64,000 nucleotides of DNA from Streptomyces agglomeratus (GTDB taxonomy: Bacteria > Actinomycetota > Actinomycetes > Streptomycetales > Streptomycetaceae). The DNA lies in contig NZ_MEHJ01000001.1 in the NCBI RefSeq assembly GCF_001746415.1, positions 1,298,501 through 1,362,500 of the forward strand, given 5' to 3'. The notes under the pieces were generated by a model. The model saw nothing but the letters and a program-made list of their open reading frames with translations, did no database searches and was not told the DNA's origin. Shown piece after piece: positions 13,586-64,000 of the stretch (its first letter is position 1; each line of letters starts with the position of its first letter). The position numbers were made by a program, and so were the translations under genes.

Positions 13586-15028
13586 ATGGAACGGCAGGAC
13601 GGCTTGCGCGGGGTGCGGAGTCATGATCGTCAAGTACCGGCCGCAGTGGCCGAGGTCTTTCGGCACGGGTGGGCGGACACCAGCGTGCGGCCGCCGCTCG
13701 TCTCCGGAGCCGCGTGCGCGGCCAAGCGGCGTGCGGCGGTGTCGGAGCGGTTCCCCGGGGAACGGATCGTCGTCCCTTCGGGCGGGCTCAAGGTCCGCAG
13801 CAACGACTTCGACTACACGTTCCGGCCGCATTCCGCGTTCGTCCACCTCACCGCCGAGCAGGGGACGCAGGCGGTTCCGGACAGCGTGCTCGTCTTCGAG
13901 CCCACCGGCGGCGGGCACGAGGTCACCCTGTTCACCCGGCCGCGCTCACCCCGCGACGCCGGGCCGCACGGTGCGGAGTTCTACAGCGACCGGCAGCACG
14001 GTGAGTTCTGGGTCGGCCGGCGCCGTACGCTCCGGGAGACCGCCGACGCCCTCGGCATCGAGGCCGCCGCCCGCGACAGTCTGGAACGGGCACTCGGCGG
14101 CGGAGTCCCCACTCGGGTGGTGCGCGGCGAGGACGCGTTCGTCGACGCGCTGGTACCGCCGTCCGCACCCGCCGACGCCGAACTCCTCGCCTTCCTCTCG
14201 GAGCTGCGGCTGGTCAAGGACGACTGGGAGATCGAACAGCTGCGCGCGGCCGTGGGGTACACCGTCGCCGGTTTCCACGACGTCGTCGGGGAGCTGCCCC
14301 ACGCCACTCTCCTGGCGCGGGGTGAGCGCTGGATCGAGGGCACCTTCAACCGGCGGGCGCGGCTGGAGGGTTACGGGCTGGGGTTCGAGACCATCGCGGC
14401 GGCCGGCGCGCACGCGTGCGTGCTGCACTGGATGCGCAACGACGGCCCGGTGCGGGAAGGGGATCTGCTCCTGCTGGACGCCGGTGTCGAGGCCGACTCC
14501 TTCTACACCGGGGACGTCACCCGGACGCTGCCGGTCGGCGGACGCTTCACGGATGTCCAGCGCCGCGTCTACGACCTGGTGTTCGCCGCCCAGTCCGCGG
14601 GCATCGCCGCGCTGCGGCCCGGCGCACGGTACGGCGCCTTCCACGACGCCGCGATGCGCGTCATCGCCGAAGGGCTCGACGCGTGGGGCCTCAGGCCCGC
14701 GGGCGGGGCGATGCCGCACGAGGCCGCTCTCTACCGCCGGTACACCGTCTGCGGTTCGGGCCACATGCTCGGCCTGGACTGCCACGACTGCGCCGCCGCC
14801 CGCAGCGAGACCTACGTGGACGGTGTGCTGGAGCCGGGCCATGTGCTCACGGTCGAGCCCGGCCTGTACTTCCAGCCCGACGACCTGACGGTCCCGCAGG
14901 AGCTGCGCGGCATCGGCGTACGGATCGAGGACGACTTCGTCATCACGGCCGACGGTGCCCTGTGCCTGTCGTCGGGCCTGCCCCGCGGCGCCGACGAAGT
15001 CGAGGCGTGGATGGACGCGCTGCGGTGA
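13586..15028 (+). CDS. Second aminopeptidase P paralogue
   Basis: 480 aa, plainly homologous along its full length to the gene just upstream but well diverged at the N-terminus. The AMP_N region (SNDFDYTFRPHSAFVHLT) is present. The M24 metal ligands are retained: LLLDAGVE, TGDVTRTLPV, GSGHMLGLDCHD, TVEPGLYF, RIEDDF. The enzyme should be active. Its stop overlaps the start of the LAL regulator (GTGA), so the two are translated together. That arrangement suggests this copy has been recruited to a specialised role, perhaps with the biosynthetic locus downstream; the link is inference. The ATG follows a GGGGAGGC ribosome site. Confidence 0.9.
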   Translation: MERQDGLRGVRSHDRQVPAAVAEVFRHGWADTSVRPPLVSGAACAAKRRAAVSERFPGERIVVPSGGLKVRSNDFDYTFRPHSAFVHLTAEQGTQAVPDSVLVFEPTGGGHEVTLFTRPRSPRDAGPHGAEFYSDRQHGEFWVGRRRTLRETADALGIEAAARDSLERALGGGVPTRVVRGEDAFVDALVPPSAPADAELLAFLSELRLVKDDWEIEQLRAAVGYTVAGFHDVVGELPHATLLARGERWIEGTFNRRARLEGYGLGFETIAAAGAHACVLHWMRNDGPVREGDLLLLDAGVEADSFYTGDVTRTLPVGGRFTDVQRRVYDLVFAAQSAGIAALRPGARYGAFHDAAMRVIAEGLDAWGLRPAGGAMPHEAALYRRYTVCGSGHMLGLDCHDCAAARSETYVDGVLEPGHVLTVEPGLYFQPDDLTVPQELRGIGVRIEDDFVITADGALCLSSGLPRGADEVEAWMDALR

Positions 15029-17718
15029 GGACGCGCCGCCCCTTGGTCGACCAGGTCTGCGGACAGCTGCGGCAGGCCGGTGCGGTGGCGGTGGTCGGAC
15101 CCACCGGGTTCGGGAAGTCCGCGGTGCTGGACGCGGTGTGCACGGTGTGGCAGTCCTCCGGCGACCCCGTGGTCAGGCTCAGCTCGGCGCCCGCTGACGC
15201 ACACCTGCCGTACGTACCCCTCGTGGACCTGTTCACCGTGTGCCCGGTGGACGTGAGGGGCGAACTGCCGGACGTCCAGCGATCGACGATCGACTGGGTA
15301 CTGCGCCGTGTCACCGGACCCGAACCCGACCCCGCGATCCTCCGCGTCACGGTCCTTTCGTGCCTGCGGGCGTGGGGGCGCAGGGCCCGGCTGCTGCTGG
15401 CCGCCGACGACATGCACTGGTGGGGCCCGGACAGCCTGGACGTCTTCGGTTTCGCGGCACGCCGCAGCCGCGGCAGTGTGTCGCTCCTGGCGGCGCTGCG
15501 TCCCGACGGCCCGCTGCCGCACGACGTGCTCGGCGGCGACGCGGTGGAGATCGCGGTACCCACGCTCAGCCCGCAGGAGTCGGCGGCCGTCGTGCGGTCC
15601 TTCGGGATCCCGCTGCGGACCGCCGCGCGCATTCACACGGCGACGGGCGGCAACCCCCGCCTGGTCTCGGACATCGCCGCCGGACTGGCTCGCTCCGGGG
15701 CGCCGGCGGTACTGGACGCGCAACCGCTGGCCCCGTACGCGCGCAAGGCGCTCCGAGCCTGGCAGGCCGGGCTGGCCGCGCCGGTGCATCGGGTGCTGCT
15801 CCTGGCGGCGCTCGCGGCCGACCCGTCCCTCGACGCCGTCCGCCGGGCCGCGGGACCGTCCGCCGACGCGGCCCTCGCCGACGCCGAGGCGGCCGGGCTG
15901 ATCCGGGTGACCGGCACCGTGGTCTTTCCGGCCCCGGTCGTACGGGAGGCCGTCCTCGCCGAGGCCGGCGGTCTGGCGGTGCGTCAGGCGCACCTGGCGC
16001 TGGCCGCTGCCGCGTCGGAGGCCGGCGACCGTATCTGGCACGAGGCGTCCGCCCTGTCCCCGGCCCGGCTTCCCGCAGGTCTGGTCACCTCGCTGGCCGA
16101 TGCCGCCACTGCCGCGCGGGAGAGCGGCGACCACACCCGGGCCGCCGAGTTCGGCCTGCTGGCGGGCGGCCGGGCCGACGACGCCCGGCACGACCTGCTG
16201 GTCGCGGCCGCCCTGGACGCCGAGTCGGCCGGGCGATTCGACCTGGCCCGCACGGCGCTTGACGAGCTGGACCGCAACCGGGCGGCGCCGACGGCCCGCG
16301 CCCGGGCGCGGCTCGCCGTCGTCGACGCCGCCGGGCGGGGCGCCGCACTGGTGGAGCACGTGGCGGCCAGGGCGCTGGCCGAGGCCACGGCCGCCGGCGA
16401 GCCCGCGCTGATCTCGGCGGCGCATCTGCGTCTCGCCCGGGGCCTGCGGTGGCACCGCGGCTGCCACGCCCAGGCACTGGCGCACGCCCGGTCGGCCGAG
16501 GAGTGGGCCGAGCGGGCCGGTGACGCCGTGACCCGTGCTTCGGCCGTGGCCCTGACCGCCCGGATCGAGCAGAGCCGGGGTACGCCGGACCATGCCGCGG
16601 TGCTCCAGAGCGCCCTGGCAGCGGGCACGCCGGCCGGCATCGGCCCGGTCCCCGAGGAGCCGCGCCGGGTCGCCGTCGGTTTCGCCCTGCTCGATGACCG
16701 GCTGGACGAGGCCGGGCGGCTGCTGGACGAACTGCGCCCGGCGGACCGCCCCGCCGACCGGCTGTGGCTGCTCGGCAGCGCCGTCCAGATCCACGCACAC
16801 CGCGGCGAGGGTTCGCTCGCCTGCCAGGAGGCCCACCGCCTGCTGGCTCTGACCCGCGACCTCGGTGCCTCTCCCGGCCCGCCGTGGTACGCGGCGGCGA
16901 CCGCCGAACTCGCGGGCGGCACCCTCCAGCAGGCGCTCACGTACGCGGAACTCGGTTCGACGGCTTCGCAGGAGGACGCGGACTCCGTCTGCACCGCGCA
17001 CTGCCTGCACCTGTCCGGCATGACGCGGCTGCTGCTGCGGGACGTCGGCGGAGCCCTGGCCGATCTGCTCAGGGTCCGGGACCTGGTGCAGGGCCTGGGC
17101 ATCGTGGACCCTGCGGAGGTCCGCTACGACGCCGACCTCGCCGAAGCGCTGTTCGCCGCCGGAGACATCCCGGCCGCCATGCGTACGGTCGCCGATGCCC
17201 GGCGCCGGGCCGAGGAGCTGGGACGGCGCGGTGTGCTGGCCTCCCTCGACCGGGCCGAGGCGCTGTGTCACGCGGCGGCAGGCGAGTTCGGTCCGGCCGA
17301 GGAACTGCTCAAGCGCGCCATGCGTACCTTCGAACGGCTCGGACACCCGCTCCAGTGCGGGCGGGTGCTGCTGACCCACTCGTCCGTCGAGCAGCGGCGC
17401 CGGCGCCCGGCCCGCGCCAGGGAGTTGCGGGCGACGGCCGACGGGGTGTTCCGCAGGGCGGGCGCGCCGCTGTGGGCGCCGGCCCGGCCGGACGGGGCCC
17501 GGGTACCGGTCTGGCTGGCCGGTCTGACGGACGCGGAGCGGCGGGTCGCCGAACTGGTCACTGAAGGGCGCGGCAACCGCGACATCGCGGCCGCCCTGTA
17601 CGTCAGCGTCAAGACCGTGGAGGCGGCCCTCACCCGGATCTACCGCAAGCTCGACGTGCGGTCACGGGTCCATCTGATGGCACTCGTCCAGAAGGACGGT
17701 CACCACGCGTGCCGGTGA
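15025..17718 (+). CDS. LAL-type LuxR regulator with AAA ATPase domain
   Basis: 897 aa, a large ATP-dependent regulator. Walker A GPTGFGKS lies at 25-32, and LLLAADDMHW near 120-130 is Walker B-like. A long helical, TPR-like middle contains repeated Ala/Leu-rich helices. A LuxR HTH closes the protein (about 830-890, LTDAERRVAELVTEGRGNRD, then VSVKTVEAALTRIYRKLDVRS). The GTG overlaps the pepP paralogue stop. LAL proteins often activate antibiotic clusters. Its position 94 bases before the ligase gene makes it the likely cluster regulator, although those genes are on other strands. It is paralogous to the LAL gene at 40311. Confidence 0.9.
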   Translation: MRTRRPLVDQVCGQLRQAGAVAVVGPTGFGKSAVLDAVCTVWQSSGDPVVRLSSAPADAHLPYVPLVDLFTVCPVDVRGELPDVQRSTIDWVLRRVTGPEPDPAILRVTVLSCLRAWGRRARLLLAADDMHWWGPDSLDVFGFAARRSRGSVSLLAALRPDGPLPHDVLGGDAVEIAVPTLSPQESAAVVRSFGIPLRTAARIHTATGGNPRLVSDIAAGLARSGAPAVLDAQPLAPYARKALRAWQAGLAAPVHRVLLLAALAADPSLDAVRRAAGPSADAALADAEAAGLIRVTGTVVFPAPVVREAVLAEAGGLAVRQAHLALAAAASEAGDRIWHEASALSPARLPAGLVTSLADAATAARESGDHTRAAEFGLLAGGRADDARHDLLVAAALDAESAGRFDLARTALDELDRNRAAPTARARARLAVVDAAGRGAALVEHVAARALAEATAAGEPALISAAHLRLARGLRWHRGCHAQALAHARSAEEWAERAGDAVTRASAVALTARIEQSRGTPDHAAVLQSALAAGTPAGIGPVPEEPRRVAVGFALLDDRLDEAGRLLDELRPADRPADRLWLLGSAVQIHAHRGEGSLACQEAHRLLALTRDLGASPGPPWYAAATAELAGGTLQQALTYAELGSTASQEDADSVCTAHCLHLSGMTRLLLRDVGGALADLLRVRDLVQGLGIVDPAEVRYDADLAEALFAAGDIPAAMRTVADARRRAEELGRRGVLASLDRAEALCHAAAGEFGPAEELLKRAMRTFERLGHPLQCGRVLLTHSSVEQRRRRPARARELRATADGVFRRAGAPLWAPARPDGARVPVWLAGLTDAERRVAELVTEGRGNRDIAAALYVSVKTVEAALTRIYRKLDVRSRVHLMALVQKDGHHACR

Positions 17719-17730
17719 GAGCGACCGGTG

Positions 17731-17792
17731 GCCGGGGCAGGGCCGGGTCCGGGACGCGTGCGGCTTCCCGCCGGCGACCCGGGCGCCCCGGC
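17731..17792. terminator. Bidirectional terminator between LAL and ATP-grasp genes
   Basis: Nested inverted repeats: outer 8-bp GCCGGGGC/GCCCCGGC (17731-17738 with 17785-17792) and inner 7-bp CCGGGTC/GACCCGG (17743-17749 with 17776-17782). They fill the spacer between convergent genes. Confidence 0.6.
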
Positions 17793-17812
17793 CCCGGGCG
17801 GACGCACCGGTG

Positions 17813-19165
17813 TCAGTCCGCGTACCAGCCGACGGAGCCCAGGATGCTCGAACCCGCCGTCCCCGGTGCGGCGTTGCCCGGCGCAGGGACGTCGTAGCGC
17901 ACCACGCAGCCGGTCATCCGTCCGCCCATGAACAGCGGGCCGAACACGGCGCGCGTCGATATGCCGAGGTATTCGCCCCGGTCGCAGTCGAACACGTCCG
18001 CGTGCATCTCGGTACTGTGGACGGCCTCCTGGGCAATCCACGTGCCGGCTGTCCTGGCCTTGACGATGACGTCCTCCCACGCCGACGCGTCGGTCCTGGA
18101 GCCGATGTGGACATCGAAGTTCTGGTCGCCGTCGGAGCGCTTCAGGACGAAGTCCGCTCGCCGTTCCCTCAGCAACTCGTCCAGTTTCCAGGACTCGCCC
18201 TCGAATTCGACTGTTTCCTCCCGCGTCCCTCGCGACCAGGGAATGTACTGCTGCACGAACGCCCGGTCCCGGTCGGTCATCCACTCCTGTCCCTTGGACA
18301 GCAGGGCGAAGAGCTGCTTGTTCGCCGCCTGGTAGGAACTCTGCGGCGTCAGCACCGCGGAGCCGCACTTCCTGATCCTGAGCAGGGGATCGAGCCCCCG
18401 CCCCGCGTCGATCCACTCCTGCGGCACCGTCCGTTCGAGGACCAGTGGGAACTCGCCCCTGCGGGTGCCGAGGGCCTCGATGAACTCGTCCGTGTCGAAG
18501 TACTCCGCCCTGATGCCCGACTTCCGCAGTGAGTCGACCTCGATCTCGTAGTACCTCCGGCTCCCACCGGTGTCGGTGAGGAAGACGTCGGGGAGGTAGC
18601 CGACGAGCGCCACGTACGGGTCCAGGCCGAGGTCCTCCAGGACGGTACGCAGCATGTCGCCGCGTGCCTTGAGGGGATCCGCGAGCGTGAGCGTGGCCAG
18701 GGCCGTGTCGGGCAGCAACTGCCGCCACAGCTCGTTGAGGAGGTGGGCGTAGACCTGACCGCCGGTGGACGAGCAGAAGTTGAACTCTATGAACTTCCAC
18801 CCGGATTCGGTAAGGATCACGTCCGGCCGGCCCATGACCGTCGCGTACGTGTTCTCGAATTCCTCGTCCGCGTAGAAGTCGGTCAGTCGCTCGTCGAGGC
18901 CGAGGGCACGGTGCCGGGTCACGCAGTCGCCGCCCAGGCTCCGCACCGCCCGCCGCAGCAGGCCGGCCAAGTACGCGCTCGCACGCTCCAGTTCCTCGCC
19001 CTGCGCGGCGGGCCGGACGACGGGGCCGGCCGGGGCGATCCGGTCGAACCAGAAGGATCTGAAGCCCCGGAACTGGTGGTCGAACGCGTTGAGGAGCAGG
19101 CGCGGGTCCGTCGCGTACAGCGCCGGTGCGGCCGTTCCCTGCGCGGCCGTCGAGGTGTGTTCCAT
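17813..19165 (-). CDS. ATP-grasp-like ligase (circularly permuted, glutathionylspermidine-synthase-like)
   Basis: 450 aa. The sequence has the look of a circularly permuted ATP-grasp ligase that joins an amine to a carboxylate using ATP: a KFIEFNFCSSTGG segment near 127-140, FVLKRSDGDQNFDVHIGS near 350, and a late IAQEAV strand. There are no membrane segments or carrier domain. Family membership rests on pattern recognition and is not certain; substrates cannot be read from sequence. Next to a carboxylic acid reductase, exporter and flavin monooxygenase it probably builds the amide or peptide core of a small product. It is read in the same direction as the broken leuA fragment upstream. TTTCTACTCCTGG on the plus strand gives CCAGGAG as ribosome site on the coding strand. 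Confidence 0.62.
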   Translation of the reverse strand: MEHTSTAAQGTAAPALYATDPRLLLNAFDHQFRGFRSFWFDRIAPAGPVVRPAAQGEELERASAYLAGLLRRAVRSLGGDCVTRHRALGLDERLTDFYADEEFENTYATVMGRPDVILTESGWKFIEFNFCSSTGGQVYAHLLNELWRQLLPDTALATLTLADPLKARGDMLRTVLEDLGLDPYVALVGYLPDVFLTDTGGSRRYYEIEVDSLRKSGIRAEYFDTDEFIEALGTRRGEFPLVLERTVPQEWIDAGRGLDPLLRIRKCGSAVLTPQSSYQAANKQLFALLSKGQEWMTDRDRAFVQQYIPWSRGTREETVEFEGESWKLDELLRERRADFVLKRSDGDQNFDVHIGSRTDASAWEDVIVKARTAGTWIAQEAVHSTEMHADVFDCDRGEYLGISTRAVFGPLFMGGRMTGCVVRYDVPAPGNAAPGTAGSSILGSVGWYAD

Positions 19166-19265
19166 GTGTTTCTACTCCTGGTTGAGGGCTTGTGCGGACG
19201 GCAGCGCGCCGTCCTTCTCCCGCCGCGCCCGGCGCAGCGCGGAACGGGCCGATCCGTGTGCCGCG

Positions 19266-19704
19266 TCAGCGGCGGTGGCTGCCGGACCGAGCCCCGGAGC
19301 GTGCGGCCGCCCGCGTCCCGTCGAGTACGCGTGGCCGGCCCGGTGCGGCGTCGACGACCTCGCGCCCCGGGCACGCCGTCGCGTGGCACAAATGCACCGT
19401 GGCGCGTTCCGCCCCGCGAATCGCGCCGTGGTGCGCTCGATAAGTTCCGGACGGCCCGGCGTGAAAACCGGCATCGTCACGTCGCCCGGAATTTCCCGCT
19501 TTACAACCAATTCTCGGACCAAATCGAAGTCGAGCGCGCCGGCCACTGGAAATCCGATTTCGATGTCTTTGAAGCCGGTCGCCGCGAGCAGACCGAACAT
19601 CCGCTTCTTCCGGCGCACGTCCATGGGAGCGGCCGGCGCCTGATTCCCGTCCCGGAGATCTACCGGCGCCCACACCGGAGCACGGTAGACCGTACTGTCC
19701 GGCC
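19266..19704 (-). pseudogene. Truncated, frameshifted 2-isopropylmalate synthase (leuA) remnant
   Basis: About 105 residues match the start of the LeuA catalytic barrel: WPDSTVYRAPVWAPVDLRDG, then a KRMFGLLAATGFKDIEIGFP helix, REIPGDVTMPVFTPGRPELI and ERTTARFAG. The frame then breaks in a run of four G near 19412; adding one G restores GAERATVHLCHATA, the next LeuA strand. Even in that second frame the reading stops at 19266, before the metal-binding HxH and the rest of the barrel. It is therefore a fragment, not a working synthase. A residual ancestor of a side-chain or acid-building enzyme for the neighbouring pathway is possible. No start codon can be assigned. Confidence 0.72.
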
Positions 19705-19971
19705 ACCGCCGCGACCAGCCGGAAGGGGAATCCGACGGGCCCCGCGCACAGCGAGGTAACGGCATGGACGACAGACGATGTGAAATTCCCTGGAACTCTC
19801 CGGGAAAGGTCAATGGTGTTCCCCCCTTGCACGCCACGCCGCACTCTCTCGCGGTTCGCAGCCGCTTCGAGACTACGGAGCGTCAGGCCCCGCGGGAAGT
19901 GGACGGCCCTCTATACCTGACCCTGGAATCGGGCCATTCGGACGCCCGGACCGGACCGGCGGACTTCGCGG

Positions 19972-19999
19972 TTGACGCCCCGGTTTTCGTCACTAGGCT
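19972..19999 (+). promoter_or_regulatory. HrdB-type promoter for the MFS-CAR operon
   Basis: TTGACG (19972-19977), a 16-base spacer, and TAGGCT (19994-19999). This matches the Streptomyces vegetative consensus TTGAC and TAGPuPuT. The transcript would start about 45 bases before the MFS start codon. Confidence 0.65.
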
Positions 20000-20049
20000 T
20001 TCGCAGCATTACCGTCACTAATTCACCGCCTCATTTGAAATGGCAGGCC

Positions 20050-21441
20050 ATGGCCGAATCCATAGGTTTTGACAGCCGCGCGTCGGACACAGGCGGTGCG
20101 ACCGTGCGGCCCGGCCGCGTCCTGACGGTGGCCTGCCTGGCGCACGGGATGATCGTTGTCGACACCAGCATCGTCCATGTCGCGATACCTGCGATCAGCG
20201 AAAGCCTCCGCGCGAGCCTTCCGACGATGCAGTTAGTCGTCACCTCGTACGTGGTGGTCATCGCCAGTCTGATGCTGGCCGGAGCCGCGGCGGTCGGACG
20301 CCACGGCACGGTACGGATGTTCCGGCTCGGCGTCCTGCTGTTCGGGGTGTCTTCCGTCCTGTGCGCTCTCGCTCCCAGCGGCGCCGCGCTCGTCGCCATG
20401 CGGGCATCGCAGGGGCTGGGTGCGGTGCTGATCATGCCGGCCACCCTGGTGATGCTCACCGACACCTACCGGGAGCCCCGCGAGCGCGCCAAAGCCGTCT
20501 CCATCTGGTCGATGGTCGCGGGGAGTCCGGTCGCGTTCGGTCCCACGCTCGGGGGCGCCCTGGTCGAGACGGTGGGCTGGCGGAGCATCTTCTGGATCAA
20601 TGTGCCCGTCGTCCTGCTCGTCCTGTGGCTCTCGGCCCGGCACATGCCCCGTGACCAGCAGTCCGCGCACAAGGAACCGCAGGACGTACTGGGCCAGTTG
20701 CTGTCCGTCGTCTTCCTCGGCGGCCTCGCACTGGCGCTCATCGAAGGCCAGCACCTGGGCTGGACCCGGCCCCTGCCCGTGGTGGCGTCGCTGACGGCCG
20801 TGGTCGCGTTCGCCGCCTTCGTCGTCCGGCAGCGGAGGTACGCGTTCCCGATGATCCCGGACGACCTGTTCCGGGCCCCCGGGTTCCGCGGCTTCGTCAC
20901 CGTCGGCCTGCTGCTCTTCGTCGGATACAACGGGCTGATGTTCACGCTCAGCGTGTTCCTCCAGCAGGTACGCGGATACGACCCGGTCACCGTGGGGCTG
21001 TTCTTCCTGTCCTCCGCCCTGCCGATCACCTTCATGCCCCTGATCGCGGGACGCTTCGACGCCAGATTCGGCTCCCGGTCGGTGCTGGGCGCCGGAATCC
21101 TGTTGTCCCTGCTCGGCGGTGTGCTGCTGGCCGCCGTCGGCAGCAGCGCCCCGATCGGTACGTGCGCCGGGCTCGCCTTCATCGGACTCGGCTTCGGCCT
21201 GGTGACCGTGCCACAGATCACCCTGGCCATGGCGGCGGCTCCGGCACACCGCTCGGCCATCGCCGGCGGACTGATGTCGGCGGGCCGGTCGACCGGCTCG
21301 CTGATCGGCGTCGCCCTGCTCGCCGGCCTCCAGTCCGGTGGCGGCATCGCCGCCCCGGCGTTCGCCCTCGTCGCCATCTACGTACTGATGGGGCTGGCCG
21401 CCTGGTTCGGCGGCCGGGCACTGTCCGCCGACGCCTCCTAG
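20050..21441 (+). CDS. MFS exporter, DHA2 (14-TM) drug:H+ antiporter type
   Basis: 463 aa with a run of hydrophobic helices consistent with 14 membrane spans. The opening TVACLAHGMIVVDTSIVHVA and the antiporter motif C (GSPVAFGPTLGGALVE, about 158-173) are typical of EmrB/QacA-family proton-driven export. It probably exports or gives resistance to the product of the locus. The start ATG at 20050 is downstream of a vegetative-type promoter; an upstream in-frame TTG at 19972 is part of that promoter. Codon 62 is TTA (20233-20235), the only one I noticed in this locus, so translation should depend on the bldA tRNA. The carboxylic acid reductase follows 72 bases later in the same direction. Confidence 0.88.
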   Translation: MAESIGFDSRASDTGGATVRPGRVLTVACLAHGMIVVDTSIVHVAIPAISESLRASLPTMQLVVTSYVVVIASLMLAGAAAVGRHGTVRMFRLGVLLFGVSSVLCALAPSGAALVAMRASQGLGAVLIMPATLVMLTDTYREPRERAKAVSIWSMVAGSPVAFGPTLGGALVETVGWRSIFWINVPVVLLVLWLSARHMPRDQQSAHKEPQDVLGQLLSVVFLGGLALALIEGQHLGWTRPLPVVASLTAVVAFAAFVVRQRRYAFPMIPDDLFRAPGFRGFVTVGLLLFVGYNGLMFTLSVFLQQVRGYDPVTVGLFFLSSALPITFMPLIAGRFDARFGSRSVLGAGILLSLLGGVLLAAVGSSAPIGTCAGLAFIGLGFGLVTVPQITLAMAAAPAHRSAIAGGLMSAGRSTGSLIGVALLAGLQSGGGIAAPAFALVAIYVLMGLAAWFGGRALSADAS

Positions 21442-21513
21442 CGGACGCGCGGGCCGGCGGCACAGGCCGCCGGGGGCCTCGGTTCATCGCAGTCCACACA
21501 CACCGGAGCATTC

Positions 21514-24500
21514 ATGTCGGAGCATCAGACAGGACACGACGTCGCGTCCCGGATCGCGGCACTGCACGCGAACGATCCCGAATTCGCCCGGGCCGTTCCG
21601 TCACCTGACGTCGCCGACGCCATCCAGCGCCGCGACGGCAGCCTCATCGGTGTCATCGCGGCCGCCATGGAGGGGTACGCGGACCGGCCGGCCCTCGCCC
21701 GCAGGGCCGGCCGCGTCGTCCGCGACCCCGCAACCGGCCGCCGCACCCGCGAACTCCTCCCCGCCTTCGAGACGCTGACCTACGCCGAGCTGTGGCAACG
21801 GGTCGGCAGGCTCGCGACCGCCTGGGCCGACGGCGCGGACGGTCTGCGCGCCGGTGACTTCGTCGCGACGCTGGGATTCACCGGCGTCGACTACGCCACC
21901 ATAGACCTGGCCTGCATGTACCTGGGCGCCGTGTCGGTGCCGCTGCCCACCGGTTCGTCCGCCGCGCGGCTGGCACCGGTCGTCGCCGAAACGAGGCCGC
22001 GGGTCCTCGCCGCCGACATCGGTTCGCTCGACGCCGCGGTCGGCGCCGTCCTGGCCTCCGACTCCATCGAGCGCCTCGTGGTCTTCGACCACGACCCCCG
22101 CGTGGACGACCACCGGGAAGCCTTCGAGGCAGCCGCCGGCAAGCTGAGCGGACGGGCCCAAGTGGTGGCTCTCCAGGACGAGTTGCACCGGGGCGGCCAC
22201 CTGCCCGCCAGTCAGCCGTACGACGACGGCGATCCGGACCGGCTGGTCGGCCTGATCTACACCTCCGGGAGCACGGGCACACCCAAGGGGGCGATCTACA
22301 CCGCCTCGATGATCACGAGAATGTGGCAGAACGGCCGCGGCGGACTGAACGCCGGGGGCGGCAGCGGCACTCCGGTGCTCGTCCTGCACTACATGCCCAT
22401 GAGCCACGTCAACGGCCGTGCCTGGCTGGTCAACGGCCTCGCCTCCGGCGGCACCGGCTACTTCGCGGCCCGAAGCGACATGTCGACGCTGTTCGACGAC
22501 ATCCGCCTGTCGCGTCCCACGGTCCTGAGCCTGGTGCCGAGGATCTGCGACATGGTGTACCAGCGGTACGTGCTCGAAGCCGACCGCCTCTGCCACACCG
22601 GCACCCCCCGCCCGGAAGCCGAGGCAGCCGCATCCGTCCAGGTCCGCGACGGCATGCTCGGCGGCCGGATCGTCATCGCCCTGTGCGGTAGCGCGCCCTT
22701 GTCCGAGGCGATGCACACCTTCACGGCCGCCGTCCTCGGTACGCCGGTCATCGACTGCTACGGGTCGACGGAGACCACCCGCGCCATCGTCGTCGACCAG
22801 GAGGTGCGCTGCCCGCCGGTGACCGACTACCGGCTGGCGGACGTTCCCGAGCTCGGGTACTTCACGACCGACAAGCCGCACCCCCGGGGCGAGCTGCGGG
22901 TCAAGTCGGTCGGACTGTTCCCGGGGTACTACAAGCAGGCCGACGTCACCGCCCGGGCCTTCGACGAGGACGGCTACTACCGCACCGGCGACGTCTTCGC
23001 CGAGACCGCACCCGGCCGCCTCGTCTACGTCGACCGGATCAACAACGTCGTGAAGCTCTCCCAGGGCGAGTTCGTCGCCGTGTCCGCGCTGGAGGCGCTG
23101 TACGCGACCAGTCCGGACATCGCGCAGATCTACGTGTACGGCAGCAGCGAGCAGGCGTTCCTGCTGGCGGTGGTGGTCCCCGACGCCCGACGCCTGGGAC
23201 CGGCCGACGAGGCCACCGTACGGGCGAAGGTCCTGGACTCGATGCGGGAACTCGCCCACGGCGCCGGCCTGCACGCGTACGAGGTCCCGCACGACGTCAT
23301 CGTCGAGCAGCAGCCGTTCACCGTCACGAACGGGCTGCTGTCGGGGGTCGGCAAGCTGCTGCGCCCCGCCCTCAAGGAGCACTACGGCCCCCGGCTGGAG
23401 CGGCTGTACGCGGACATCTCGGCCGGCCGGGCAGGCCAGGTCGCGGCGCTCAGGGCCAGGGGCGCAGAGGTCGAACCGCTGGAAGCGGTCCTCGCCGCGG
23501 CTCAGATCACCCTCGGCTGCCCCTCGTCGCTGGTCCGGGCGGAGGCCGCCTTCACGGATCTGGGCGGCGACTCCCTGTCGGCGCACACCTTCTCGACCGT
23601 CCTCGAGCAGATCGTCGGCGTGGAGGTGCCCATCCAGGTCGTACTCCAGCCGTCCTCGACGCTCACCCGCATCGCGGACCACCTCGGCTCCGCACGAAGC
23701 GCCCGGCAGTCCCGCCCCACCTTCGCCTCGGTCCACGGCCGCGACGCGCACGAGGTGAGGGCGGGCGATCTGGCTCTCGACCACTTCGTCGACGGGCGGC
23801 TCCTCGCCGGGGCGCCGAAGGTCCCGGACAGCGCCGCCCCCGTCCGCAACGTCCTGCTCACCGGCGCGACCGGGTACCTCGGACAGTTCCTGGCGGTCGA
23901 ATGGCTCCAGCGCGTCGCCGAGACGGGCGGGCAGCTGACCTGCCTCGCCCGGGCCGCCGACCACGCGGCCGCACGCCAGCGCGTGGTCCAGTGCCTCCGC
24001 GCCGCGTCGGCCGACAGGACCGACTGGTTCGACGCCGCCGCGGCCCGGCATCTGACGGTCCTGGCCGCGGACGTGTCGGCGCCCAGGCTGGGCCTCGACG
24101 AGGCGGCCTGGGAGATGCTGGCCGACGGGACCGACCAGGTCGTGCACGCCGCGGCGCTGGTCAACCACGTACTTCCGTACCACCGGCTGTTCGAGCCGAA
24201 CGTCGTCGCGACGGCGGAGCTGATCGAGCTGGCGCTCACCGGTCGGACGAAGCGGTTCGTCCACGTCTCCACGGTGGCCGCCGCGATGCTGCCCGACGGT
24301 TCGTTCCTCGACGAAGCGGCCGACGTCCGCACGGCGGCCCCGGTACGACAGCTGAACGACTCCGACGCGAACGGCTACGCCACGAGCAAGTGGGCCGCCG
24401 AGGTCCTGCTGCGCGAGGCGCACGAGAGGACCGGCCTGCCGGTCACCGTGTTCCGGCCGGACATGATCCTGCCCCACAGCCGCCTGCCCGGCCGGCTGAA

Positions 24501-25032
24501 CCTGACCGACCGGTTCGCCCGGCTGCTCCTGAGCGTCCTCACGACCGGCATGGCGCCGCGCTCCTTCTACCGCCTCGACCGGGACGGCAATCGCCGGCGG
24601 GCCCACTACAGCGGCCTGCCGGTCGACTTCACGGCCTCGGCGATCACCTCGCTCAGCGCCGGAAGCACGGACGGATACGTCACGTACAACACGGTCAACG
24701 TCCACGACGACGGGGTCTCGCTGGACGAGTTCGTGGACTGGCTGATCGCCGCGGGACACCCGGTCACCCGGTTCGACGACCACCGGCAGTGGCACATGCG
24801 CGCCGAGGCCGCCCTGCGCGGCCTTCCCGACCACCAGCGCCGGCTGTCGCTGCTGCCGTTGATGCAGGCGTACGCCCGGCCGGGCGAAGCCAAGGCGGGC
24901 TCCGAGGTGCCGGCCTCGCGGTTCACCGCGGCGGTCCGCGATCTCGGCGCGGGTGAGGGAGTCGTGCCCTCGCTCTCACCGGAGTTCATCGCCAAGTGCG
25001 TCGGCGACCTGAGGCTGCACGGACTTCTCTGA
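21514..25032 (+). CDS. Carboxylic acid reductase (adenylation - carrier - thioester reductase)
   Basis: 1172 aa, the size and domain order of actinobacterial CAR enzymes that reduce a free acid to an aldehyde with ATP and NADPH. The adenylation domain carries YTSGSTGTPKG (about 249-259), YGSTETT, ELRVKSVGLFPGYY, YRTGDV and a KLSQGEF lysine region. The carrier domain has the phosphopantetheine serine in DLGGDSLSAH (Ser near 685). The reductase domain starts VLLTGATGYLG (about 780-790) and has the catalytic pair in YATSKW (Tyr near 955). No condensation domain is present. It needs a phosphopantetheinyl transferase, not seen in this window. It is probably co-transcribed with the exporter. The acid substrate is unknown. 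Confidence 0.92.
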   Translation: MSEHQTGHDVASRIAALHANDPEFARAVPSPDVADAIQRRDGSLIGVIAAAMEGYADRPALARRAGRVVRDPATGRRTRELLPAFETLTYAELWQRVGRLATAWADGADGLRAGDFVATLGFTGVDYATIDLACMYLGAVSVPLPTGSSAARLAPVVAETRPRVLAADIGSLDAAVGAVLASDSIERLVVFDHDPRVDDHREAFEAAAGKLSGRAQVVALQDELHRGGHLPASQPYDDGDPDRLVGLIYTSGSTGTPKGAIYTASMITRMWQNGRGGLNAGGGSGTPVLVLHYMPMSHVNGRAWLVNGLASGGTGYFAARSDMSTLFDDIRLSRPTVLSLVPRICDMVYQRYVLEADRLCHTGTPRPEAEAAASVQVRDGMLGGRIVIALCGSAPLSEAMHTFTAAVLGTPVIDCYGSTETTRAIVVDQEVRCPPVTDYRLADVPELGYFTTDKPHPRGELRVKSVGLFPGYYKQADVTARAFDEDGYYRTGDVFAETAPGRLVYVDRINNVVKLSQGEFVAVSALEALYATSPDIAQIYVYGSSEQAFLLAVVVPDARRLGPADEATVRAKVLDSMRELAHGAGLHAYEVPHDVIVEQQPFTVTNGLLSGVGKLLRPALKEHYGPRLERLYADISAGRAGQVAALRARGAEVEPLEAVLAAAQITLGCPSSLVRAEAAFTDLGGDSLSAHTFSTVLEQIVGVEVPIQVVLQPSSTLTRIADHLGSARSARQSRPTFASVHGRDAHEVRAGDLALDHFVDGRLLAGAPKVPDSAAPVRNVLLTGATGYLGQFLAVEWLQRVAETGGQLTCLARAADHAAARQRVVQCLRAASADRTDWFDAAAARHLTVLAADVSAPRLGLDEAAWEMLADGTDQVVHAAALVNHVLPYHRLFEPNVVATAELIELALTGRTKRFVHVSTVAAAMLPDGSFLDEAADVRTAAPVRQLNDSDANGYATSKWAAEVLLREAHERTGLPVTVFRPDMILPHSRLPGRLNLTDRFARLLLSVLTTGMAPRSFYRLDRDGNRRRAHYSGLPVDFTASAITSLSAGSTDGYVTYNTVNVHDDGVSLDEFVDWLIAAGHPVTRFDDHRQWHMRAEAALRGLPDHQRRLSLLPLMQAYARPGEAKAGSEVPASRFTAAVRDLGAGEGVVPSLSPEFIAKCVGDLRLHGLL

Positions 25033-25037
25033 ACCGC

Positions 25038-25081
25038 CCCGCGGCATCCTGCCGGCCATCGGGCGGGCAGGATGCCGCGGG
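25038..25081. terminator. Bidirectional terminator after carboxylic acid reductase
   Basis: Perfect 16-bp stem (25038-25053 with 25066-25081), 12-base loop. It lies between the convergent reductase and monooxygenase genes. Confidence 0.8.
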
Positions 25082-25104
25082 TTCCCGCAGGCGGTGGGAA
25101 GGGC

Positions 25105-26028
25105 TCAGCGGTGCGCGGGCGCGATCTCCTCGATGACGTGCCGGGGAGTGGCGAAGAACCCGGACTCGCGCGGGTAGTGGACCACGACGTCGGTGAAGCC
25201 CAGCTCCGCACACCGCCCCGCGACGTCCTCGAACGCCTGCGCCGACTCCATCGTCGGCAGCAGCGAGAACCCGGTCAGCAGCGTCCGGTCCAGGGACTTG
25301 GGGTCACGGCCCTCCTGCTCGCACGCGGCGTCCAGCTGCTCCATCCGGCGTGCGAGGACGGACCAGGTCCAGGCCGCCGTCCGCTCGTGCCGGGGGACGT
25401 CCCCCTGGTCGGTGACGACCCACGACGCGCCGTACCGCGCGACGGTCCGCATCCCCAGCGGACCGTTCGCCGCCAGCACGAAGGGCACGCGGGGCCGTTG
25501 CACGCAGCCCGGCTCCAGCCGGGCGTCGATCGCCTCGTAGTAGCGGCCGAGGAAGGTGGTCTGCTTCCGGCCGTCGGGCGCCCCGGTCAGCAGCCGGTCC
25601 AGCAGTTCCACGGACTCCCGGTACCGGCCGCCGCGTTCCTGCACCGACCAGCCCTTGCCGCGCTCGCCCTGGCCGAGCACGAAGGCGTCGGCGTCGGGCG
25701 AGCCGGCGCCGTAGCCGAGTACGAACCGGCCCTCGCTGATGGCGTCCAGGGTGATGACGTCGTGCGCGAGCGGCACCGGGTGCCGGTAGTTCGGCGAGGT
25801 CACCAACGTGCCGAGCCTGATCCGCGAGGTGACCCCGGCGGCGGCCGCCAGCGTGGGCATCGCACCGTACCAGGCACTGTCCGGCAGCCCGGCCCAGGTG
25901 ATGTGGTCGTAGCTGTAAGCGGCGTGGAAGCCCAGTTCCTCGGCGCGCCGCCAGGTCTCGGCCGCCTCCCGGAACGGACGGTCGGGCAGGATGCAGACGC
26001 TGACGCGCACAACGGACTCCAGATTCAT
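25105..26028 (-). CDS. Luciferase-like (LLM class) flavin-dependent oxidoreductase
   Basis: 307 aa, the bacterial-luciferase/F420-reductase TIM-barrel family. Typical elements are VSVCILPDRPFREAAETWRR, AEELGFHAAYSYDHITW, RIRLGTLVTSPNYRHPV, LDAISEGRFVLGYGAGSP and a late GFTDVVVHYP. FMN or F420 use cannot be decided by eye. It should oxidise or reduce a small organic substrate, plausibly a tailoring step of the adjacent pathway, or act on an aldehyde as luciferases do. The start ATG has only a weak AGAAG site. It is convergent with the reductase across a shared terminator. Confidence 0.85.
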   Translation of the reverse strand: MNLESVVRVSVCILPDRPFREAAETWRRAEELGFHAAYSYDHITWAGLPDSAWYGAMPTLAAAAGVTSRIRLGTLVTSPNYRHPVPLAHDVITLDAISEGRFVLGYGAGSPDADAFVLGQGERGKGWSVQERGGRYRESVELLDRLLTGAPDGRKQTTFLGRYYEAIDARLEPGCVQRPRVPFVLAANGPLGMRTVARYGASWVVTDQGDVPRHERTAAWTWSVLARRMEQLDAACEQEGRDPKSLDRTLLTGFSLLPTMESAQAFEDVAGRCAELGFTDVVVHYPRESGFFATPRHVIEEIAPAHR

Positions 26029-40310: not shown

Positions 40311-43241
40311 GTGACGTCGGCGGTGTACCGGCCCGCGCCGGTCGGGCGGGCCGAGCTCCTCGCACGGCTCGAACGGGTCCTGCACTCCCGCGGCCGCGCC
40401 CTGCTCACCGGCCCCGCGGGGGTCGGCAAGACGGAACTCGCCCTGGCCGCCGCCGCGCGCGCCGAGTCCCGCGGCGAGGCCGTGATCTGGCTCGCGACCC
40501 TCCCCGCCGACCGTGACATACCGGGTGCTGCCGCCGCCGCCCTCGTCGCCTCGGTGGCGGCCTGCGTGTCCTGGCCGGCCGCCGGGACCGCCCACAGCGG
40601 CCCCGGCGGGCCGGGCGACCCGGCCGGACCGGGTACGTACGACCTGCTCGACGGGCTCCCCGGCCCGCAGCGGACCGCCGTCGCCATGCTGTGCCGCGAG
40701 GCACTCATCCCCGACGGCGGCTGGGACGCCATCGCCCTGCGGCTCGGCCTCGCCCAGATCCTGCGGACCCTCGCCGCGCGCGGACCGGTCCTGCTGGTCA
40801 TCGACGGCGTGCAGCGCGTGGACGACACCAGCGCCGACCTCGTCCGCTTCGCCCTGCACCTGGCCCCGCCCGCCCTGCGGGTCCTGGCCGTCGAGACCCC
40901 GTCCCCGTACGGCTCCGAGCCCTCCGAAGGCGGTACGCCGCGACCCGACCCGGCGGCCGGCCCGGAACCCCTGTGGGTCCCCTCCGAGGCCGACGTCCTG
41001 TTCGTACCGCCGCTCCAGGCCGACGAGATAGCGGAACTCCTCATCCACCACCGGCTGCCCTCCCGGATGGCCGGCCGCATCCACCGGGCCAGCGGCGGCA
41101 ATCCGCGCCTCGCCCTCGCCGTCGGCCGCTCGCTGGCCGACGCCCGGACGCCGGTGCACCACGCCGAGGCGCTGTCGCTGTCCGGGCGCGCCCGCGACCT
41201 GGCCCGCCAGCTCCTGGGCGCCGCCTCGCCCGGCGTACGTGCCACGCTCCTGCTCGCCGCCCTCGCCCTGCGCCCCACGGCCTCACTGATACGCCGGGCC
41301 GGCCGCCCCACCGCCGAGGCCGATCTGGCCGCCGCCGAACGGGCGAACCTGGTCTCCCTCGACGAGGACGGGACGGTCGGCTTCACAGCCGGCGTACTGC
41401 CGTCGACACTCGTGCACGACGCCTGCTGGACCGAGCGCAGCGCCGGTCACGCCGCCCTCGCGCGGGTCGTCGATGACCCCGTCGAGGAGGTCCGCCACCG
41501 GGCCCTGGCCACCGACATCCCCGACGGGGCGCTGGCCGCCGAGGTCGCCGACGCCGCCGACGTCGCGCGTCGCCGGGGCAACAGCGCGCTGGCCGCCGAA
41601 CTGGCCCTCCTGGCAGCCGAATCGACACCCGTGCAGCACGGCGCCAAGCGGATCGCCCGGCTGGTCGACGCGGCCGAGGAGGCGGCCCGCGCCGCCCGCG
41701 CCGACCTGGCCATGCGCGCGGCCACCGACCTGCTCGCCCGCGACGCCGCACCGGCCGACCGGGTCCGCGCGCGCCTCGCGGTGCTGGACACGGCGGGCCA
41801 GGGCCTGTGCGACCTGGAGGAGATCTACGTCCACGCCATGGAGGACTCCGAGGGCGACACGGCGCTGCGCGCGGCCGTGCAGCTGCGGCTCGCGGTGAAG
41901 TACGTGCTCGCCGACGGCGATCCCGTACGCTCCCGCGCCGCCGCCGTCGAGTCCGCCGCGCTGGCCGGCTCGGTCGGCGACCGCAGGACCGCGGCGAGGG
42001 CGCTGACCGTACAGGCGCGCATGGACCGTGTCCTGGGCTCGCCCGACGCGGAGCGGGTGCTGGCCGAGGCGCGCGCCCTGGAGGTGTTCGAGCGCCCGCT
42101 CGGCATCCGTAACGCCGCGCAGATACTCACGATCCGCCACGCGTTGTTCGACGACCGGCTAACCGACGCCCGCGACCAGGTCAACGCCCTGCTGCCGCTG
42201 GTCGAGCGCCGCGGCCCGGTGGAGGACGCCATCGAGCTGTTCCGCACGCTCGCCGAGATCGGCGCCCGGCAGGGCCAGTGCGCGACGGCGCTCGCGCACG
42301 CCGGCCGGTCGCTGGCCCTGACCCTGGAGGCGGGTCTCTCACCGGGGCCCGCCTGGTACGCCCTGGCCCTCGCGGAGACGGCGGGCGGCAGTTTCGAGCG
42401 CGCGGCGAGCTACGCCCGGCGCAGTGTCCGGGCCTCCGAGGAGGAGGGGGACCACGTCTTCCTCTCCCGCAGCCGGTACGCGCTCGGCCGGGTCCAGCTG
42501 ATCAACGGCGACGTGGCGTCCGCCCTGGAGAGCCTGCGCCGGGTACAGGCCGACGAGCGCGCCCAGTCGACCGTCGACCCGTCCATGCTGCGCTGGCACG
42601 AGGAGCTGGCCGAGGCACTGCTCGCCAACGACGCCCCGGAGGAGGCCGCGGCGCTGCTGGCCGGCGTACGGCCGGTCGCCGAGCGCCTCGGCCGTACGAC
42701 GGTGCTCCTCGGTTGCGACCGGGCGTACGCCCTGTACCTGGCGGCGAGCGGCAAACCGGACGAGGCCGCGGATCTGCTGTCGCGCACGGCGGACAGTTTC
42801 GCCGCGGCGGGCCTGCCGCTGGAGAGCGGCCGGGCCCTGATCGCACTGGCGCGCGTGGAGCGCCGCCGCCGCAGGCGGTCGGCGGCCCAGAGCGCGCTGC
42901 ACGCCGCGGCCGCCGTCTTCGAACGGGCCGGGGCGGTGCCCTGGCTGGGGCTGACCACGGAGACGTCGTCCCGTACGGCGGAACCCGCCCCGGCGCGCGG
43001 CGAGAACCTGTCGTCCCTCACGGACGCGGAGCTGCGCCTCGCCCTGCTGGTCGGCCAGGGCGCCAGCAATCAGGAGGCGGCGGCCAAGCTGTACCTGAGT
43101 GTGAAGACGGTCGAGGCCCGGCTGACCCGCATCTACCAGAAGCTGGACGTCCGCTCGCGCGCCCAGCTGGCGACCGCCCTGACCGCCCGGCAGGGCCACC
43201 TGCCGGCGTCCGCGGCGGCGGAAAACCCGGCGGCCGGCTGA
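40311..43241 (+). CDS. LAL-type LuxR regulator with AAA ATPase domain
   Basis: 976 aa. Walker A GPAGVGKT lies at 34-41 and the Walker B-like LLVIDGVQRVDD near 160-172. A long TPR-like helical middle is followed by a LuxR HTH (about 905-965, LTDAELRLALLVGQGASNQE, VKTVEARLTRIYQKLDVRSR). It is a paralogue of the regulator at 15025, with shared segments such as SPGP.WYA.A.AE.AGG and the basic RRRRRSA helix. The GTG at 40311 follows AAAGGGTGG. Two SpoIIE-type phosphatase genes follow directly, seven bases downstream then overlapping, so the three form one operon. Target genes unknown. Confidence 0.9.
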   Translation: MTSAVYRPAPVGRAELLARLERVLHSRGRALLTGPAGVGKTELALAAAARAESRGEAVIWLATLPADRDIPGAAAAALVASVAACVSWPAAGTAHSGPGGPGDPAGPGTYDLLDGLPGPQRTAVAMLCREALIPDGGWDAIALRLGLAQILRTLAARGPVLLVIDGVQRVDDTSADLVRFALHLAPPALRVLAVETPSPYGSEPSEGGTPRPDPAAGPEPLWVPSEADVLFVPPLQADEIAELLIHHRLPSRMAGRIHRASGGNPRLALAVGRSLADARTPVHHAEALSLSGRARDLARQLLGAASPGVRATLLLAALALRPTASLIRRAGRPTAEADLAAAERANLVSLDEDGTVGFTAGVLPSTLVHDACWTERSAGHAALARVVDDPVEEVRHRALATDIPDGALAAEVADAADVARRRGNSALAAELALLAAESTPVQHGAKRIARLVDAAEEAARAARADLAMRAATDLLARDAAPADRVRARLAVLDTAGQGLCDLEEIYVHAMEDSEGDTALRAAVQLRLAVKYVLADGDPVRSRAAAVESAALAGSVGDRRTAARALTVQARMDRVLGSPDAERVLAEARALEVFERPLGIRNAAQILTIRHALFDDRLTDARDQVNALLPLVERRGPVEDAIELFRTLAEIGARQGQCATALAHAGRSLALTLEAGLSPGPAWYALALAETAGGSFERAASYARRSVRASEEEGDHVFLSRSRYALGRVQLINGDVASALESLRRVQADERAQSTVDPSMLRWHEELAEALLANDAPEEAAALLAGVRPVAERLGRTTVLLGCDRAYALYLAASGKPDEAADLLSRTADSFAAAGLPLESGRALIALARVERRRRRRSAAQSALHAAAAVFERAGAVPWLGLTTETSSRTAEPAPARGENLSSLTDAELRLALLVGQGASNQEAAAKLYLSVKTVEARLTRIYQKLDVRSRAQLATALTARQGHLPASAAAENPAAG

Positions 43242-55228: not shown

Positions 55229-55632
55229 TCCAGCAACGGGCAAATTTCGACTGGATGCTCAAGGAGCTGGCCGACGGGGTTCCGCAGGTCCAGCAAATCG
55301 TCGTCCTGTCCGCGGACGGACTGCGGATCGCCCGGCACGGCGGCGACCCCGACGCCGCCGACCGGCTCGCCGCCGCCTGCGCGGGGCTCCAGAGCCTCGC
55401 CGGGGCCGTCGCGGCGGAAATCCCGTACAGCGAGGGCAAGATGCGGCTCGTCGTCATCGAAGTCGACGGCGGCCTCTTCTACCTGATGGCGGCCGGGACC
55501 GGGGCGTACCTCGCCGTGCTCGCCGACGACACGGTGGACGCGGGCCTCATGGGAACCCGCATGCGCGACCTGGTCATCCGTATCGGCGCCCATCTGACGA
55601 GCCCTCCGCGCCATGACGGGCAGACCGTATGA
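55225..55632 (+). CDS. Roadblock/LC7 domain protein (CvnB)
   Basis: 135 aa. One Roadblock/LC7 domain fills the protein: FDWMLKELADGVPQVQQIVV, LSADGLRIARHGG, GGLFYLMAAGTGAYLAVLAD. Second protein of the conservon, thought to regulate the GTPase CvnD as MglB-like proteins do. GTG start overlapping the cvnA stop, with AAGGGAG upstream. Its stop overlaps cvnC by ATGA. Confidence 0.95.
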   Translation: MIQQRANFDWMLKELADGVPQVQQIVVLSADGLRIARHGGDPDAADRLAAACAGLQSLAGAVAAEIPYSEGKMRLVVIEVDGGLFYLMAAGTGAYLAVLADDTVDAGLMGTRMRDLVIRIGAHLTSPPRHDGQTV

Positions 55633-56580: not shown

Positions 56581-56610
56581 TCGCCCGACCTCCCCATCCC
56601 TGGAGTGACC

Positions 56611-61795: not shown

Positions 61796-64000
<2,205 letters not shown>

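Follow-up and report, generated by a model that had tools for sequence, protein, structure and literature searches.

Results

Seven intact genes and a scar

The DNA considered here is a stretch of 64,000 nucleotides from Streptomyces agglomeratus (contig NZ_MEHJ01000001.1, positions 1,298,501 to 1,362,500 of the forward strand), and the whole of this stretch is referred to as the window. It contains a locus at which genes for two aminopeptidase P-like peptidases (APP1 and APP2), a LAL-type regulator, an ATP-grasp ligase, an MFS exporter (MFS_A), a carboxylic acid reductase (CAR), and a luciferase-like oxidoreductase (LLM) are intact, and at which the stretch between the MFS_A and ligase genes is made up of pieces of other genes (Table 1). 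In an earlier, sequence-only reading the ligase, exporter, CAR, and LLM, together with a leuA fragment, were regarded as a compact biosynthetic locus free of nonribosomal peptide synthetase (NRPS) and polyketide synthase (PKS) genes. The genes are real, but the locus is incomplete, consisting of the two ends of a larger cluster.

Table 1 Features of the locus, with positions in the window
Feature	Positions	Strand	Remarks
APP1, aminopeptidase P-like M24 metallopeptidase, 487 aa	11988..13451	+	PF00557 and PF05195
APP2, second aminopeptidase P-like gene, 480 aa	13586..15028	+	54% identical to APP1
LAL-type regulator (homologous part; exact start uncertain)	15166..17718	+	Within open reading frame (ORF) 14416-17718
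G+C-rich palindrome between the convergent LAL and ligase genes, without a T run	17768..17801		
Circularly permuted ATP-grasp ligase (P0001), 450 aa, intact	17813..19165	-	
Scar: 3' tail of MFS_B (deleted second MFS gene)	19172..19241	-	Matches G066 joined 23802-23859, G030 from 23048, SM11 from 9877
Scar: 3' end of the lost isopropylmalate-synthase-like gene	19226..19318	-	G066 joined 14541-14634, 82% identity
Scar: short internal isopropylmalate-synthase-like piece	19324..19370	-	G066 joined 13626-13673, 83% over 48 bases, E 2.6e-7
Scar: leuA fragment, from the 5' part of the lost isopropylmalate-synthase-like gene	19354..19831	-	
MFS_A, DHA2-like exporter; possible ORF start at 19972	20050..21441	+	
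CAR, A-PCP-R, 1172 aa	21514..25032	+	
Inverted repeat (20 nt, 4-nt loop, 95% complementary) between the convergent CAR and LLM genes	25038..25081		
LLM, luciferase-like oxidoreductase; membership uncertain	25105..26028	-	PF00296

The locus has lost the core of a larger cluster

A search of 199 genomes found close homologs of the ligase outside its own genome in G066 (83% identity) and G030 (84%), with a CAR 12.6-12.9 kb away, and four further relatives (Streptomyces SM11 and the Kitasatospora strains GAS204B, MAA19, and A2-31) were added by a contig search and a family sample. Across these six relatives the CAR lies 11.3-12.9 kb from the ligase on the same contig, as compared with 2.3 kb in the window, and the space between them is taken up by an intact block. 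Besides MFS_A, this block contains, in order, genes for an isopropylmalate-synthase-like protein (IPMS), a MaoC protein, a 2OG-Fe oxygenase (2OG), an HpcH/HpaI lyase (HpcH, whose nearest NCBIfam model, the itaconate-degradation lyase RipC, scores below its cut-off), a 296-aa protein (U296), an esterase, an alpha-oxoamine synthase (AOS), an ornithine-cyclodeaminase-family reductase (OCD), an amidase, and, in four of the six, a second MFS protein (MFS_B; not found in the GAS204B and MAA19 clusters). These nine or ten further genes, bracketed by the ligase/CAR set in the six relatives, are deleted in the window. At its ligase end the cluster is bounded by the LAL gene and two aminopeptidase P genes in G066 and G030; in the three Kitasatospora strains one aminopeptidase P gene adjoins the CAR gene instead.

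Alignment to the intact cluster resolves the stretch from MFS_A to the ligase into four collinear pieces: the 5' part of the IPMS gene, a 48-bp internal piece and the 3' end of the same gene, and the tail of MFS_B, which runs into the ligase gene. The parts missing between them amount to about 160 bp, 870 bp, and 9.2 kb, and at two of the joints the neighboring pieces overlap by ~16 bp in the alignments, as expected for joints at short similar sequences. Thus, three deletions have reduced a 16-17 gene, NRPS-free cluster to the window locus: they took nearly everything from the start of the IPMS-like gene to the ligase and left APP1, APP2, LAL, the ligase, MFS_A, CAR, and LLM intact. The four ordered pieces therefore account both for the compactness of the locus and for the leuA fragment, which is indeed isopropylmalate-synthase-like and turns out to be the 5' one of three scar pieces of that gene. 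(An insertion in the relatives, rather than a deletion in the window, was rejected because the window holds pieces of the missing genes in order.)

It is accordingly highly improbable that ligase, CAR, LLM, and MFS_A form the whole of a compact pathway yielding a small amide or dipeptide aldehyde, as had been proposed. All four genes are intact and constrained, and no close relative with readable surroundings lacks the linkage of ligase and CAR; however, the same genes bracket a biosynthetic core in six of six other genomes, and only the window lacks it and carries scars. Nor does the anatomy of the intact cluster suggest a small dipeptide aldehyde as the product.

Two of the lost genes have features of their own. 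For U296 there was no credible Pfam match even at E ≤ 10 and no PDB match, and its structure prediction was poor (pLDDT 47). In an alignment of seven sequences (L073 15425-16354 and homologs, 294-309 aa), an HFD motif (H138, D140) and H251 are invariant in all seven, a pattern that might be that of a metal-binding oxygenase. Separately, the N-terminus of a ligase from the protein database (P0009), compared by eye, resembles the fused start and tail of MFS_B; it looks as if MFS_B was lost independently there.

A rare ligase linked to the CAR

Among genomes with readable surroundings, the window included, a ligase of at least 70% identity is linked to a CAR in 7 of 7; counted by copies, 7 of 8 ligases have a linked CAR, the exception being a second copy in the window's own genome. 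At E ≤ 1e-60 the ligase occurs in 5 of 392 Streptomyces genomes and 9 of 394 genomes of the family (own genome included), which speaks against a housekeeping role. Of the close homologs among 22 proteins listed from a protein database, most were not placed in a genome; these include two copies from one strain, Streptomyces sp. V3I7. The two outcomes named in the sequence-only reading as contrary to it, unlinked ligase and CAR in related genomes or a housekeeping ligase family, were thus not observed; yet distant ligase homologs (31-43% identity) do occur without this CAR, as taken up below.

Structure comparison confirmed that the ligase has an ATP-grasp fold and placed it in the circularly permuted YgiC/GspS subgroup; high Z scores were restricted to the glutathione-synthetase-like group, a result that does not indicate the substrate. 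No Pfam or NCBIfam model matched, and searches of the PDB gave no match with the single sequence and no meaningful one with a profile. The YgiC/YjfC proteins and glutathionylspermidine synthetase (GspS; PDB 7uka, 7uk6, 2io8) are 12-15% identical to the ligase and share no Pfam match with it. Residues D115, E127, N129, K283, and K342 are invariant in 20 of 20 aligned homologs and may include the Mg/ATP ligands, for which GspS has the pattern D-x11-E-x-N.

Some distant ligase homologs stand in settings of their own. L101 (G115:C9:214000-233500) combines a 31% ligase homolog and AOS, HpcH, OCD, and MaoC genes with genes for a cupin_8 protein, a DmpG-like aldolase, and an acetaldehyde dehydrogenase, and is a predicted sister NRPS-free pathway. 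L095 (G338:C10:130000-149500) contains a 42% ligase homolog, a 73% aminopeptidase P, AOS, and HpcH, with nearby ORFs that look NRPS-like. In three of eight stretches around distant ligases (L096, L097, and L099, from G381, G774, and G674), a 34-36% ligase homolog and a 46-47% LLM homolog lie ~2.3 kb apart, possibly as a separate ligase-LLM system.

The CAR belongs to a clade with private motifs

The CAR is complete, with PF00501, PF00550, and PF07993 in one chain (adenylation, carrier, and reductase domains; A-PCP-R) and a score of 1542 bits against the 1300-bit cut-off of the NCBIfam equivalog model NF041592. It matches solved CARs (PDB 5msc, 5mso, 5msp) over the full length and has the carrier motif LGGDS and the Rossmann motif of the reductase domain. 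The CARs of the cluster group in a clade of their own and share 46-52% identity with the other genome CARs in the comparison. Whereas the solved CARs have SHIAGR or SHVMGR together with YGSTEAG, the cluster CARs have SHVNGR and YGSTETT, a combination found in all 8 aligned clade members and in G319, and in none of 18 other CARs. A pattern scan of these 18 found P.SH..GR in 11 and YGSTEAG in 10, the remainder at the latter position reading STEAA (three), STEVM (one), or giving no pattern match (four). The commonest A-domain motifs (SHxMGR/SHxAGR and YGSTEAG, which are not strictly defining) are thus absent from the window CAR. We assume that these positions line the acid pocket, and the private motifs suggest a changed pocket and a different acid substrate.

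Twenty of the 199 genomes searched have a CAR over the cut-off, and only those of G000, G030, G060, and G066 fall into the clade, which also includes the CARs linked to the ligase in the remaining cluster genomes. (Three CARs were left out of the tree: a second, lower-scoring one from G182 and partial ones from G093 and G120, the partial ones being 48-51% identical to the window CAR.) The genome of the window has one CAR at E ≤ 1e-20.

The retained genes are under constraint

We compared ratios of nonsynonymous to synonymous substitutions (dN/dS) on three-taxon branches by the coarse method of Nei and Gojobori, with G030 and SM11 as comparators (G066 where SM11 is cut; the SM11 LAL, half a gene, was left out). 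On the window branch dN/dS was 0.24 (0.14-0.41) for the ligase, 0.33 for CAR, 0.33 for MFS_A, 0.14 for LLM, 0.28 for APP1, 0.17 for APP2, and 0.36 for LAL, as compared with 0.22-0.43 for the same seven genes on the branch of the intact G030 cluster; no internal stop was found in any of the seven. Selection on the retained genes is therefore not relaxed on the window branch. For the IPMS scar, dN/dS was 0.80 (bootstrap 0.33-2.97) on the window branch and 0.17 on the G030 branch. Moreover, dN of the scar, 0.140 (0.098-0.186), is at or above dS of the neighboring genes (0.08-0.14), and the loss therefore seems not to be recent. These values read as an early loss of the core on the window branch, with ends that stayed constrained.

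A related core lies elsewhere in the chromosome

The second ligase copy (72% identity) lies in the same chromosome, 0.5 Mb from the window locus, together with genes for IPMS, MaoC, 2OG, HpcH, U296, esterase, AOS, OCD, MFS_B, amidase, and two aminopeptidase P proteins (44-48% identical to those of the window). No CAR, LLM, LAL, or MFS_A was found in the 53 kb read around it, and it is the only related core found in this genome. (TyrA, EamA, aminotransferase, PhyH, and FMN dehydrogenase genes beside it were not counted as members because they have no homologs in the core stretches of G060, G319, G266, G235, and G525.) In trees of five core genes the second core groups with those of the same five genomes, apart from the first type. 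Two of these genomes have separated loci: in G060, CAR and MFS_A lie at a contig end (381 bases beyond MFS_A) and a related core on another contig, and in G319 they form a two-gene unit, with the core again on another contig. No other cluster gene was found in 30 kb around the G319 unit, whose flanks show no similarity to the cluster set.

At E ≤ 1e-120 the AOS occurs in 10 of 295 Streptomyces genomes, in a single copy each. A core with esterase and amidase is present in five of these (G000, G030, G060, G066, and G319), each of which also has a cluster-type CAR; the remaining five (G235, G266, G051, G073, and G336) have no such CAR. G235 and G266 have a core without esterase and amidase, as does G525, a CAR-less genome from another sample; in G051, G073, and G336 the AOS is more distant (50% to the query) and only HpcH and MaoC were recognized, the stretches of G073 and G336 being short. 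(G336 has a CAR of 49% identity.) We give no probability for this co-occurrence because the genomes are not independent. Conversely, the cluster-type CAR was found only alongside an AOS core, in 4 of 4 cases in the 199-genome set (G000, G030, G060, and G066), in G319, and, linked, in SM11, GAS204B, MAA19, and A2-31. This distribution bears on a separate role for the retained CAR and MFS_A, in acid turnover or in export of a compound unrelated to the core. The isolated two-gene unit of G319 would fit such a role; the confinement of this CAR to genomes with an AOS core, although the AOS is present in so few Streptomyces, renders it improbable.

Aminopeptidase P, LAL, and LLM

The suggestion that the LAL and tandem aminopeptidase P genes belong to the locus held, since their homologs travel with the ligase in the relatives. 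Homologs of APP1 (77-90%) are found in the clusters of G066, G030, GAS204B, MAA19 (truncated where the contig ends), and A2-31, and homologs of APP2 (80-89%) adjoin LAL or the ligase in the same five. Both proteins contain PF05195 and PF00557, the two domains of aminopeptidase P, and residues 58-484 of APP1 align to the E. coli-type aminopeptidase P 2bww (E 2.8e-58). Their DAG, D-TRT, GLDxHD, VEPG, and RIEDD segments, which presumably include the metal-binding residues, align without loss to the solved enzymes. Loci of the two main core types with a covered neighborhood contain an aminopeptidase P gene in 10 of 11 cases, the miss being G266 (SM11, whose contig ends before the gene, was left out), and in the differently built locus of G338 one lies 2 kb from the ligase homolog. 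This recurrence suggests self-resistance or processing: most simply, the peptidases would be resistant copies of the target or processing enzymes.

LAL homologs (71-83%) are convergent with the ligase gene in G066, G030, GAS204B, and A2-31, and a partial one (80%) lies at the contig end of SM11; none was found beside the ligase in MAA19. (The name LAL comes from the sequence-only reading and fits the gene length and a helix-turn-helix-like C-terminal end.) The LLM had been cast as a tailoring enzyme, and it does adjoin the CAR in four Streptomyces versions of the locus (the window and, at 91-94%, G066, G030, and SM11); however, its membership is uncertain because it was not seen next to the CAR gene in two Kitasatospora strains, GAS204B and A2-31 (in MAA19 the contig stops too soon to show it). 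At E ≤ 1e-100 the LLM was found in only 2 of 37 Streptomyces genomes searched (G000 and G030), which does not support the idea of a common housekeeping neighbor; a different genus of the order has homologs at 62-64% in 10 genomes.

A proposed route to an amino-ketone

On the basis of the Pfam and NCBIfam families of the core enzymes, from which all substrates in the scheme are deduced, IPMS and the HpcH/RipC-like lyase, working in the condensing direction, would join a 2-oxo acid and acetyl-CoA, and MaoC would dehydrate the CoA ester to give an acyl-CoA. The AOS would then condense this acyl-CoA with an amino acid, with decarboxylation, to an amino-ketone (a ketomethylene-like pseudopeptide unit). 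The OCD enzyme might reduce an imine or ketone and the 2OG enzyme carry out an oxidation, and the ligase would add an amino acid through an acyl-phosphate. The CAR would use ATP to activate a remaining carboxylate, take it up on its carrier arm, and, with NADPH, reduce it to an aldehyde that may cyclise, and export would be by MFS. An AOS-derived amino-ketone finished by ligase and CAR is, from these families, a more likely product than a small dipeptide aldehyde.

The ketomemicin (ktm) clusters of Micromonospora, Streptomyces mobaraensis, and Salinispora are likewise NRPS-independent and are reported to comprise an aldolase, a PLP-dependent C-acyltransferase, a dehydratase, an ATP-grasp peptide ligase, an amidinotransferase, and a dehydrogenase, with partial clusters in 23 Salinispora genomes (PMC11943689). 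The HpcH-type lyase, AOS, MaoC, and ligase of the intact relatives match functions listed there, by family only; in the window itself only the ligase remains of that set. Extra here are the IPMS-like enzyme, 2OG oxygenase, esterase, amidase, aminopeptidase P, LAL, and CAR; the dehydrogenase ktmF could correspond to the OCD-family reductase. No amidinotransferase (ktmE) was found among the Pfam-scanned genes of the window, G066 and G030, and the second locus (LAL was unscanned and U296 had no match). In a sample of the class, the AOS was found at E ≤ 1e-70 in 3 of 394 genomes, with no recognizable ktm cluster.

For the pseudopeptides dynaplanin (dynZ) and arphamenine, too, a stand-alone PLP-dependent C-acyltransferase of the AOS family is proposed to form an unusual carbon-carbon bond with an amino acid (PMC9239090); the gene set, CAR, ligase, and M24 peptidases differ. 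Both likenesses, to the ketomemicin enzyme set and to dynaplanin/arphamenine logic, lead us to expect an amino-ketone or ketomethylene unit. The small NRPS-made peptide aldehydes of Streptomyces belong to the same product class (PMC10548850), but here a stand-alone three-domain CAR is present and the cluster has no NRPS module. (A bestatin- or amastatin-like product, an idea prompted by leuA and the aminopeptidases, was dropped, as the AOS/HpcH/MaoC set fits an amino-ketone better.) The open-licence literature yielded no bestatin- or amastatin-like cluster of this kind and nothing relevant on leupeptin-type ligase pathways, and within open-licence PMC articles we did not find this cluster family described.

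Elsewhere in the window

Judged by ORF order and first residues only, positions 53645-58158 resemble a conservon-type operon (a sensor kinase-like ORF, two small proteins, a GTPase-like ORF, and a P450-like ORF). A long ORF at 78-1940 shares 32-34% identity with the cluster's isopropylmalate synthase across ~100 residues and probably encodes a citramalate-synthase-type enzyme. A second LAL-like regulator, 35% identical to that of the cluster, lies at 40641-43199. Finally, positions 62001-64000 have a G+C content of 56.5%, as compared with 66-77% in the other 2-kb steps, and are possibly foreign DNA.

Discussion

The explanation that we favor, at a probability of about one half, is that the window locus, a remnant from which the core was deleted, and the second locus are two half-loci that now make up one split pathway with the chemistry proposed above. 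A split pathway is supported by the presence of one CAR and one related core in the genome, by the separation of CAR and MFS_A from the core in G060 and G319, and by the co-occurrence of cluster-type CAR and esterase/amidase-type core among the Streptomyces genomes. The leftover ends appear preserved, and the reason may be the second core copy elsewhere in the chromosome.

The chief alternative is that the core was deleted, that the remaining genes are idle and due to decay, and that the second core is an unrelated, self-sufficient relative. In its favor, the core is gone. Also in its favor, and against a split pathway, a ligase, MFS_B, and aminopeptidases are encoded in the second locus itself, which may be self-sufficient without a CAR, and the cores of G266, G235, and G525, which lack a CAR, seem self-sufficient too. 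Several further points weigh against a split pathway. G060 and G319 are close relatives in the region concerned (88-92% DNA identity) and together add at most about one further lineage; both lack a ligase of this family, so that a core can occur without the ligase. The distant ligase homologs also occur without the cluster CAR: G338 and G381 have none at E ≤ 1e-100, and none was found in the 19.5-kb stretches around the ligases of G774, G584, G674, G130, G115, and G160. Similarly, no aminopeptidase P gene was found in the 19.5 kb read in G266 or in the stretches read around the distant AOS of G051, G073, G336, G795, and G115 (short in G073 and G336). The interval for the scar is wide, and for its conserved-domain part by itself dN/dS is 0.38 (0.06 on the G030 branch). 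If the deletion is more recent than the scar indicates, the genes could still look constrained after their function has gone. Against decay, however, all seven retained genes have dN/dS of 0.14-0.36 and no internal stop next to a leuA-like scar that is near neutral, albeit with the wide interval, and in G060 and G319 CAR and MFS_A have been kept separately from a related core. We therefore regard decay as possible but rather unlikely.

A bolder form of the split pathway is a swap of cores, in which the diverged second core would feed the retained ligase, regulator, exporter, and a CAR for a new class of substrate, and the product would be an amino-ketone aldehyde aimed at aminopeptidase P, with resistant copies of the enzyme encoded alongside. 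This proposal is speculative, and we consider it a little less likely still.

The cluster to which the window locus belongs represents a rare NRPS/PKS-free family of Streptomyces and Kitasatospora, apparently undescribed, with a CAR clade of its own. The private motifs of this clade suggest another acid substrate and may be useful for biocatalysis, and the aminopeptidase P copies point to a target that can be tested. The locus also cautions that a compact cluster seen in one genome can be the product of a deletion, and it offers a natural case in which to ask whether separated loci can rebuild a pathway.

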